Shown here: piece by piece, positions 11,377 to 27,685 of the stretch
Numbering within the stretch: the first letter of the stretch is position 1
Layout: every line of letters starts with the position of its first letter
Assembly (NCBI GenBank): GCA_021738385.1
Contig: JAIPCF010000012.1
Coordinates: forward strand, 1 to 49,275
Length of the DNA: 49,275 nt
Source of the DNA: Sulfuritalea sp.
GTDB taxonomy: Bacteria; Pseudomonadota; Gammaproteobacteria; Burkholderiales; Rhodocyclaceae
Reading direction: 5' to 3'
Notes under the pieces: generated by a model
Database searches by the model: none
What the model saw: only the letters and a program-made list of their open reading frames with translations
What the model was told of the DNA's origin: nothing
Made by a program: the position numbers and the translations under genes

Positions 11377-11438
11377 CGCCGTTACCTGCCCGCGAAGCGG
11401 AACCCCGGTACGCAGAGCGCGCCAGCGCCGACTTTTCA
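11377..11438 (+). repeat. Dispersed extragenic repeat, copy 1
   Basis: This stretch in the tpx-typA gap aligns by eye with 26283-26342 at about 43 of 56 positions with one single-base gap. Shared blocks include CGCCGT, CGCAGAGC and CGCCGA-TTT-CAG. It contains GCCAGCGCCGACTTTT at 11421-11436, a core also present (14 bases) at 16261-16274 and, inverted, at 34900-34913. It is non-coding here, so similarity is not due to protein conservation. Confidence 0.6.
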
Positions 11439-11440
11439 GT

Positions 11441-25405: not shown

Positions 25406-25978
25406 ATGTACGAAGTGCGCTTTCATGGCCGAGGCGGTCAGGGTGCCGTTACCGCGGCATCGATGCTCGCCGCTGCCCTGCTTGAAGAGGGTAAGTACGC
25501 GGTGTCTATCCCGTCTTTCGGATTCGAGCGACGCGGTGCGCCGGTGGTTTCTTTCCTTCGTTGCAGCGACAAGGTGATTCGTCAGTTGACCAACATTTAC
25601 ACGCCCGATTGCCTGATATGCGTCGACCCGACGCTGGCCAGGTCGGTTGATATTTTCAGCGGTCTCAAGCAGGGCGGCACTCTGGTGCAGGCAACACACA
25701 AGCCGCTGGCAGAGGTAATCATGGCCGATACAGTTGGTGTTGTGGGTTTGTGCAACGCTGTCAATATTGCGCTGGAAATATTCAAGCGTCCGATCACCAA
25801 TACCCTGATGCTGGGAGCGTTTGCGAAGACCACAGGAGTAGTATCTCTCGACGCGCTAAAGCGTTCGCTGGAACACTCCGACTTCCGCGATGCAGGACTC
25901 GCCCAGAACTTGCTTGCGCTTGAGCGCGGTTACGACGAAACGACAGTGCACACCATCGAGCGGAGGGTTGCAGCATGA
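25406..25978 (+). CDS. padE: Phenylglyoxylate dehydrogenase gamma subunit PadE
   Basis: A 190-residue 2-oxoacid:acceptor oxidoreductase gamma subunit. The family motif FHGRGGQGAVTAASMLAAA is at the N-terminus, followed by PSFGFERRGAPVVSF. It belongs to the NAD- and CoA-dependent enzyme that decarboxylates phenylglyoxylate to benzoyl-CoA. The ATG at 25406 follows AAGGAGG and gives a normal MYEVRFHGRGG start; ten extra upstream codons in frame are unlikely. It overlaps padF by ATGA. Confidence 0.92.
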   Translation: MYEVRFHGRGGQGAVTAASMLAAALLEEGKYAVSIPSFGFERRGAPVVSFLRCSDKVIRQLTNIYTPDCLICVDPTLARSVDIFSGLKQGGTLVQATHKPLAEVIMADTVGVVGLCNAVNIALEIFKRPITNTLMLGAFAKTTGVVSLDALKRSLEHSDFRDAGLAQNLLALERGYDETTVHTIERRVAA

Positions 25979-26274
25979 GTCGGCATACCAGTTATCCATT
26001 GTTTGATCTGGTCAAGGCCAATGTCCCGGATGACTTGTGTCCAGTTGCCACCGATGTCAGTCCCATGCTTCCGGGTGACTGGCGCAGCATGCGGCCGGTC
26101 GTTGATCGAGACAAGTGCGTCAAATGTGCTGTGTGCTGGTTGTACTGTCCGGTGCAATGCGTCGAGGAAAAGGCGGCGTGGTTCGACTTCAACATGGCGA
26201 CCTGCAAGGGCTGCGGAATTTGCGCCAACGAGTGCCCGCAGCGTGCAATCACCATGATTCCGGAGGCGACATGA
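25975..26274 (+). CDS. padF: Phenylglyoxylate dehydrogenase delta (ferredoxin) subunit PadF
   Basis: A 99-residue ferredoxin subunit with two [4Fe-4S] motifs, KCVKCAVCWLYCPVQCV and TCKGCGICANECPQRA, as in 2-oxoacid oxidoreductase delta subunits. It passes electrons from the TPP site towards the FAD subunit. It overlaps padE. Its TGA (26272-26274) lies inside an ATGA that starts a small repeat-peptide reading frame, where padG would be expected to start directly. Confidence 0.92.
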   Translation: MSRHTSYPLFDLVKANVPDDLCPVATDVSPMLPGDWRSMRPVVDRDKCVKCAVCWLYCPVQCVEEKAAWFDFNMATCKGCGICANECPQRAITMIPEAT

Positions 26275-26429
26275 GTGCCGGCCGCCGTCACTTGCCTGCG
26301 CCGCGCAATCCCAGGTGCGCAGAGCACACCATCGCCGAGTTTCAGCGCCGTGTTGCTAGCGCCGAGTTTCAACGCCGTATCACCATCGCCGAGTTTTTCA
26401 GCTGCATTCAGCTTCCGGAGGCATCATGA
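26271..26429 (+). CDS. Small repeat-peptide reading frame between padF and padG (52 aa)
   Basis: The frame starts at the ATG overlapping the padF stop and ends at the TGA overlapping the padG start, so both junctions are ATGA couplings. CGGAGG lies 4 bases before its ATG. The peptide is short, has no recognised domain, and contains a nine-residue repeat: IAEFQRRVA, SAEFQRRIT, IAEFF. It may have no function beyond keeping translation coupled across the insert. Whether the peptide is made or stable cannot be told. Confidence 0.4.
   Translation: MSAGRRHLPAPRNPRCAEHTIAEFQRRVASAEFQRRITIAEFFSCIQLPEAS
26331..26405 (+). repeat. 27-bp tandem repeat, 2.8 units
   Basis: Unit 1 (26331-26357) and unit 2 (26358-26384) agree at about 21 of 27 bases; a partial third (26385-26405) follows. 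Each begins with A-T/G-CGCCGAGTTT. The unit length is nine codons, so the reading frame repeats as AEFQRR. The same motif (CGCCGTGTT-N2-AGCGCCGA-TTT) is seen inverted near 34900-34923. Confidence 0.65.
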
Positions 26430-27685
26430 CGACAGCCACTCTTGAAACGCCAACTCAGGCCTCGCCAGCTAAACAAAAAGTCATTCTTTGTGAGGGCAAC
26501 GAAGCCGCGGCCCTGGCGGTTGCTTTGGCGCGCCCGGACATGGTGGCCGTGTATCCCATAACGCCTCAGTCCTCATTGGTCGAGCACGTCGCTGCGCTGA
26601 TTGCCGACGGCCGCATGGATGCCGACATCGTCGATGCCGAGGGCGAGCATTCGGTATTGTCCGTGCTGCAGGGCGGGGCGCTGGCCGGTGCGCGAACGTA
26701 TACCGCGACCTGCGGACCGGGTTTGGCATTCATGTTCGAGCCGTACTTTCGCACCTCCGGTATGCGGCTGCCCATCGTCATGTCCATCGTCACCCGCGAT
26801 GGCATTACGCCCCAATCGGTTTGGGGCGGTCATCAGGATGCAATGACGGTGCGCGAAGTCGGCTGGGTACAGGTGTATTGCGAAACCGTGCAGGAGGTGC
26901 TCGACACCACCGTCATGGCGTTCAAGATTGCAGAGCATCACGACGTGATGCTGCCGGTCAATGTCTGCCTCGATGGCAACTACCTTTCCTACGGCACCTC
27001 ACGCGTCGAACTGCCCGATCAGGCTGAAGTCGACGCGTTCATGGGCGTGAAGGATGTCAACTGGCACGTAGCGCTTGACCCGCACCGGCCTATGGCGGTG
27101 GATCCACTCACTGGTGGCACCACCGGCAAAGGACCGTCGACCTTTGTTCGTTATCGCAAAGGACAGTGCCGCGGAATGCAAAATTCGCTGCGCGTCATCG
27201 AGGAGGTGCATGAAGAATGGGCGCAACGCTTCGGTCGCAGTTTCGCCCCGTTGGTCGAGGAATACCGATTGGATGACGCGGACTACGCAATCATGACTCT
27301 GGGCAGTATGACCGGCGCCGCCAAGGACGCGATTGACGAAGCGCGAGATGCCGGCAAGCGAGTCGGACTGATCAAGATAAAAACTTTCAGTCCATTCCCT
27401 GTCGAGGCTTTGCTCAAATCCCTGAAGAAAATTCGAGCGCTGGGTGTGGTCGATCGTTCCGTAGGCTTCCGCTGGAATTGCGGGCCGATGTATCAGGAGA
27501 CCATGGGCGTGCTCTATCGTCACGTGACCGCAACCGGTTCCAGTCTGCCGTCAATGAGTTTCATCGGTGGTCTGGCCGGTGCCGACATCACCGTTGGACA
27601 TTTCCATCGCGTCATTGAAGCGACGGAAAGCTTGCTAACCAAGCCTGCGCCTATCGAGCCAGTCTGGCTTAACGAGCGCGATTAG
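26426..27685 (+). CDS. padG: Phenylglyoxylate dehydrogenase alpha subunit PadG
   Basis: A 419-residue pyruvate:ferredoxin-oxidoreductase-like alpha subunit (PFOR domains I and II). Motifs include VAVYPITPQSSLVEH, AEGEHSVLSVLQGGALAGA, TATCGPGLAFMFEPYF and SVWGGHQDAMTVREVGW. Together with PadI it forms the substrate/TPP site for phenylglyoxylate. The start overlaps the stop of the small insert-encoded frame, with CGGAGG 5 bases upstream. Confidence 0.93.
   Translation: MTTATLETPTQASPAKQKVILCEGNEAAALAVALARPDMVAVYPITPQSSLVEHVAALIADGRMDADIVDAEGEHSVLSVLQGGALAGARTYTATCGPGLAFMFEPYFRTSGMRLPIVMSIVTRDGITPQSVWGGHQDAMTVREVGWVQVYCETVQEVLDTTVMAFKIAEHHDVMLPVNVCLDGNYLSYGTSRVELPDQAEVDAFMGVKDVNWHVALDPHRPMAVDPLTGGTTGKGPSTFVRYRKGQCRGMQNSLRVIEEVHEEWAQRFGRSFAPLVEEYRLDDADYAIMTLGSMTGAAKDAIDEARDAGKRVGLIKIKTFSPFPVEALLKSLKKIRALGVVDRSVGFRWNCGPMYQETMGVLYRHVTATGSSLPSMSFIGGLAGADITVGHFHRVIEATESLLTKPAPIEPVWLNERD

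Follow-up and report, generated by a model that had tools for sequence, protein, structure and literature searches.

A candidate bridging mini-ORF at the coupled padF/padG junction of Sulfuritalea sp. and its relatives

The pad operon of Sulfuritalea sp. raises the question of what separates padF from padG and how translation might pass from one gene to the other. The window analysed here is a stretch of 49,275 nucleotides (contig JAIPCF010000012.1, assembly GCA_021738385.1) from a 3.34-Mb draft genome whose nearest relatives are Sulfuritalea-type; the pad gene names were taken from an earlier note on this DNA, and the identity of the enzyme is putative. In the window, the junctions B/C, C/D and E/F are all -4 overlaps at a plain ATGA, as that note had stated, and padF and padG lie 151 bp apart, which corresponds to an insert of 155 bp relative to an ATGA overlap (Table 1). 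The note had attributed this spacer to a small non-autonomous element that landed on the junction and duplicated it. The main feature, which it missed, is an open mini-ORF that runs in frame through the whole insert.

Table 1. Features of the padF/padG junction and of the related repeats in the window
Feature	Position	Strand	Remarks
Other 62-bp repeat copy	11377..11439	+	Flanked by a gene end and a terminator-like hairpin
padF	25975..26274	+	Stop overlaps the mini-ORF start at ATGA 26271-26274
First junction block	26258..26274	+	GGAGG Shine-Dalgarno 26262-26266, plus ATGA
Bridging mini-ORF	26271..26429	+	52 codons plus stop; from padF stop to padG start without interruption; from translation
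62-bp repeat copy in insert	26284..26345	+	Alignment with 11377-11439
24-bp word copy	26346..26369	+	3 mismatches
24-bp word copy	26373..26396	+	3 mismatches
Second junction block	26413..26429	+	GGAGG 26417-26421; ATGA 26426-26429 overlaps padG start
padG	26426..27685	+	

The duplicated end of padF

The blocks at the two ends of the insert, TTCCGGAGGCGACATGA on the padF side and TTCCGGAGGCATCATGA on the padG side, are identical at 15 of 17 positions with a spacing of 155, and a Shine-Dalgarno is kept by both the padF-side and the padG-side neighbours of the insert, as the note had described. When the window was taken alone, its own pair of end blocks scored 18 over 29 nt, with a p of ~0.04 in a comparison with no more than 25 other GGAGG starts, and this match exceeds only modestly what two independent Shine-Dalgarno/ATGA signals give. 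The duplication is convincing only through the relatives. In L072, L073, L076, L083 and L078, the 3' end of the insert copies the padF end past the Shine-Dalgarno (20-22 of 29 positions; control mean 11, n = 25). No control start reached the score of the true pair in 6 of the 24 rows with an occupied junction (L072 with 22/29, L073 with 21, L076, L083 and L078 with 20, and L068 with 18), and in 10 of the 24 the ungapped similarity of the end blocks was not significant. The claim of a junction duplication thus stands in that the padF end was copied, most clearly in the relatives. A query with padF-padG found no match in a plasmid collection.

Occupancy of the junction and frame of the inserts

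Loci were obtained by searching 61 genomes (30 of the same genus and the own one among them) and from 80 named loci, and the junction count was limited to loci with a padG identity of at least 75%, those of lower identity being left out. The 75 junctions collected in this way represent 52 distinct padG sequences. Half of these (26/52) show the bare ATGA overlap, three of them in the Sulfuritalea-type genus, and two more have 6 extra bases. The remaining 24 junctions are occupied, 23 in the genus and one in Azoarcus taiwanensis, so that within the genus 23 of 26 distinct junctions carry an insert, of 53-245 bp. Outside the genus the check on relatives suggested by the note gave the expected result, a direct ATGA overlap without insert.

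On the padG tree, which gives the history of one gene with gene exchange possible, the three empty genus rows fall within the occupied clade. Placing them in one group with the outgroups was rejected (p-AU 0.0007), while uniting the three as a single clade was not firmly rejected (p-AU 0.055), and occupancy changed at least 5 times across the 52 rows. The simplest reading of this tree would be one gain, up to three exact losses and a separate gain in Azoarcus. In two distant relatives (L133 and L141), unrelated inserts lie between padF and padG, which are also open and end at ATGA; L134 and L131, loci related to these two, are without an insert.

In all 24 occupied rows the length of the insert is 2 mod 3 and an open mini-ORF leads from ATGA or GTGA at padF to the ATGA of padG, coding for 18 to 82 residues in the genus. 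The bridging frame contains no stop in 793 codons, compared with 27 and 15 in the other forward frames (769 codons each) and with 24, 15 and 4 in the reverse frames. The mini-ORF frame is also stop-poor through composition, as one reverse frame has just 4 stops, and, since the rows share descent, 24 of 24 does not amount to 24 independent trials. For the same reason changes were counted on the tree, and at least 18 changes of length state were found among the 26 genus rows.

An internal control is provided by the other junctions of the operon in 25 genus loci. Inserts were present at B/C in 4/23, at C/D in 2/24, at E/F in 1/25 and at F/G in 22/25, and all 29 of these inserts at ATGA junctions are 2 mod 3. 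By contrast, the uncoupled padD/padE spacer, with 24 values above 12 bp, is split 10/10/4 between the length classes. Counted by distinct lengths, 12/12 at F/G and 3/12 at D/E are 2 mod 3 (Fisher p 0.0003). At H/I, inserts occur in 2/24 rows and both are 2 mod 3, although this junction is not of the ATGA type. The frame rule with its internal D/E control is the strongest evidence in this analysis, and the split at D/E set against the rule at the ATGA junctions argues that continuous translation across the insert is what selection keeps.

Could the rule be an accident of shared descent and element length, with no selection involved? The rows are indeed related, and the cassettes described below are nearly fixed in length (116 bp in several). 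However, many different F/G lengths obey the rule, which the D/E spacer of the same genomes does not, and we consider such an accident very improbable. We regard it as just as improbable that the product of the mini-ORF is a small functional protein belonging to the enzyme and that its frame is kept for the sake of the peptide. The open frame in 24/24 rows would fit this idea, but the products, of 18 to 82 residues, have unrelated interiors, the 24-bp word and the copied end of padF account for the residues they share, and three members of the genus have no mini-ORF.

A scan for comparable spacers was run with our own gene finder, a simple hexamer score. Across the whole of the single-contig genome G002, 119 spacers of 20-300 bp were found. 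Both signals were present in 18 of them, and among these 18 there were 12 in frame and 6 without an internal stop; at least one of these 6 is probably an ordinary gene that the gene finder missed. The same scan in the window returned a single spacer of this kind, which was out of frame; a score below 15 for either gene excluded a pair, so that the padF/padG pair of the window was removed.

Repeats inside the insert and at other coupled junctions

The note had recognised repeat DNA inside the insert, homologous to the region at 11377, and this was confirmed, as the score of the alignment was reached by 0 of 1000 shuffles. In the own genome, at least 50 and at least 44 matches to the two repeat stretches were obtained, self included (scores were computed for 40 of 235 and for 40 of 399 candidates). 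When 19 copies of the 62-bp repeat were viewed, in a biased sample of loci chosen by similarity to the window repeats, 13 lay in predicted genes. The repeat resembles the 24-bp word with ~38 extra internal bases (window 11377-11439 and own-genome loci L022-L039).

The inner repeat of the insert is largely this 24-bp word, CGCCGTnnCGCCAGCGCCGACTTT. The window holds five further copies with up to 3 mismatches, on both strands (4194, 10664, 16250, 34901 and 48374). With up to 2 mismatches the word was present in 31/31 genus genomes, in 24-602 copies, compared with 0 or 1 per strand for the reversed control, and 21 of the 24 occupied inserts hold a copy at up to 4 mismatches, L087, L146 and L143 being without. 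Beyond the genus it is scarce (7/274 genomes of the class and 11/150 of the order, the own genome counted in each). G334, of a sister genus in the same family, has 157 copies, and among the copies listed 23/26 start with T and not C.

In 400 kb of G002, the 64 copies with up to 3 mismatches formed a mismatch spectrum separate from the background; 44 were in predicted genes, 19 between genes and 1 at an edge. Flanking repeats at these copies were absent in 16 and measured 5 bp in 32, 6 bp in 9, 7 bp in 5 and 8 bp in 2, with longer ones in 0; the values of a control scaled to 64 were none 22.7, 5 bp 25.7, 6 bp 10.6, 7 bp 3.6, 8 bp 1.1 and longer ~0.4. None of the 64 copies sampled was thus flanked by a direct repeat at least 9 bp long. 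At four genic sites, two in the pad operon (21 and 23 rows) and two in core genes (30 rows each), the word is present or absent with equal length, the sole exception being L087 at one pad site. Because it is mostly genic and comes without length change or flanking duplications, the word reads as uptake-sequence-like and not transposon-like.

These results bear directly on the element proposed in the note. That a small non-autonomous transposable element hit the junction, creating a target duplication of 17 bp, would agree with the repeat DNA in the interior, the similar end blocks and the many repeat matches elsewhere in the genome. Yet the sampled word copies have no long flanking repeats, the word arises in genes without length change, and the junction unit ATGA-word-GGAGG is nearly confined to padF/padG: it was found at 11 distinct places in the 31 genomes, 8 of them padF/padG, and by our own gene calls none of the other 3 is in a spacer between coupled genes. 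We therefore hold an insertion of this kind to be very unlikely. Taken as a whole, the earlier interpretation was right about the copied padF end, the bare overlap in outgroups and the two Shine-Dalgarnos, and it is not supported as regards the small mobile element.

Word numbers differ between genomes. In 319 kb of G025 the mismatch spectrum is shifted toward more mismatches. All copies in 62 kb of G016 have at least 4. No new word dialect was seen in the 319 kb of the word-poor G025, and in the 62 kb of G016 no 12-mer reached the cut-off. Other over-represented 12-mers were GCAGATTTCGCA in G002 and GTGAAACGTGAA in G025, with 9 copies each (stretches L181-L200 and L291-L306). The competence protein family ComEC is present in 30/31 genomes and is not informative on word number, because word-poor genomes have it too. 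Of the 26 genomes with the junction, the three in which it is empty rank lowest in word total (24, 148 and 233). Per megabase, G016 and G025 are still lowest and G028 is sixth of 26 (shared phylogeny uncorrected), and the link between word number and empty junction is weaker on this scale.

A possible but doubtful reading goes further: the word would be a true uptake-type watermark, outside the established families and read by a trans-acting factor, and the mini-ORF would persist as a host for the word where the frame must hold and be lost by exact deletion after the word system has decayed. The low word totals at empty junctions and the decayed look of the sampled G025 copies can be cited for it. 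Among the best-ranked literature matches there was no report of an uptake word for the genus or for its relatives, which does not imply that it is absent from print.

Other inserts recur at coupled junctions. A cassette with the initial sequence ATGAGCAGCGGAGGGGGACCC (ATGAGCAGAGG in one case) occupies an ATGA in 8 distinct loci, of which 6 belong to pad operons and 2 do not, and is open and in frame in 8/8. It starts with ATGAGCAG, has its own mini-ORF and a terminal Shine-Dalgarno-ATGA, and is located exactly at the ATGA at F/G in L084:4834, L087:4888 and L093:4834, at B/C in L074:2397, L076:2313 and L083:2311, and in L203 and L205. The search for it gave 14 matches in 10/31 genus genomes, and 5 of the remaining 6 are a related repeat away from ATGA junctions. 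By eye the sixth, L208, looks like a further, ninth case with GTG as its start. Inverted copies of the bases that immediately precede the target ATG scored a mean of 8.9 within the 8 copies versus 7.2 in 50 mismatched pairings, which is suggestive only of a cassette that may contain an inverted target copy. A second type of insert, starting with ATGAGCGCC and 113 or 116 bp long, is found at C/D in L080:2988 and L087:2936, with a related form at B/C in L073 and at E/F in L081; it is open and in frame in all four, across three ATGA junctions of the pad operon.

The insert of the window might then descend from a dedicated cassette of the MIRU kind that moves into ATGA sites and brings a mini-ORF and a Shine-Dalgarno along. 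The ATGAGCAGCGGAGGGGGACCC cassette would be an example, as it occurs at padF/padG in three relatives and, over all its exact ATGA loci, keeps the frame without exception. Nevertheless, the window insert does not contain it and the own genome gave no match to it, and the inserts of some relatives end in a padF copy and not in the cassette end. A descent of this type appears unlikely to us.

Proposed origin and comparison with known systems

The reading that we favour, and consider probable from the comparison of sequences, is that the spacer forms a mini-ORF bridging two translationally coupled genes, derived from an old duplication of the padF end and kept in frame. Judging from the relatives, the 3' end of padF with its Shine-Dalgarno and stop/start overlap would have been duplicated early in the Sulfuritalea-type genus, and the DNA between both copies would later have come to hold the 24-bp word and, in some species, other repeats. 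Having finished padF, ribosomes may reinitiate at the ATG that overlaps its stop, read through 18 to 82 codons, terminate at the second ATGA and begin again on padG. The length changes that survive add or remove whole codons and are free of stops; others would presumably not be kept because they would break the chain of translation from padF through the mini-ORF to padG. Since padG still has a Shine-Dalgarno of its own, it may be translated without any need for coupling. The paired end copies could also permit exact deletion, leaving the bare ATGA of the three nested species.

Short repeats in operon spacers are familiar from the REP/ERIC type. The insert is like them a short repeat in an operon spacer; unlike them, the word shows no palindrome by eye and is mostly within genes. 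A closer parallel is the mycobacterial MIRU. Supply et al. reportedly described in 1997 a MIRU ORF placed at a start codon or coupled junction with a -4 overlap, expression being spared. In the parts of a 2025 review that deal with them, MIRUs appear mobile and are said to insert at start codons, with an ORF coupled by a -4 overlap (PMC12548453), so that the behaviour, which the note had called little-described, is on that account already attributed to them. Like a MIRU, the padF/padG insert sits at a stop/start (ATGA) coupling site and its ORF overlaps both neighbours, in each of the occupied rows. Unlike a MIRU, its ATGA-word-GGAGG unit is not dispersed over many junctions, whereas the ATGAGCAG cassette, which is separate from the window insert, does recur at junctions. 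It also differs in that its end is a copy of the end of the upstream gene itself, and in that it belongs to another phylum, where unrelated repeats share the behaviour. The insert would thus work like a MIRU in its behaviour, and we do not class it as one because it is not a dispersed unit; a bridging insert is, in kind, not new.

The word was likened to the DUS of Neisseriaceae and the USS of Pasteurellaceae from its sequence pattern, its uptake role being putative. Like these, it is lineage-specific, with hundreds of copies in most genus genomes, and it arises in genes without length change. The form in the sister genus of G334, which differs by one letter in most of the copies listed, may be a dialect of it. 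It is longer, with 22 fixed positions in 24 bp, than the uptake words given as 10-mers in the part of PMC3630211 that concerns them, and 44/64 copies are genic, whereas most neisserial DUS are intergenic according to the relevant passage of PMC2397512.

The padF/padG junction therefore offers a natural experiment on translational coupling, in which a dozen insert lengths fall into a single frame class and an uncoupled junction of the same operon serves as the control. It suggests that MIRU-like behaviour extends beyond mycobacteria and may involve unrelated repeats, and it brings to light a candidate word of the uptake type in an environmental genus.
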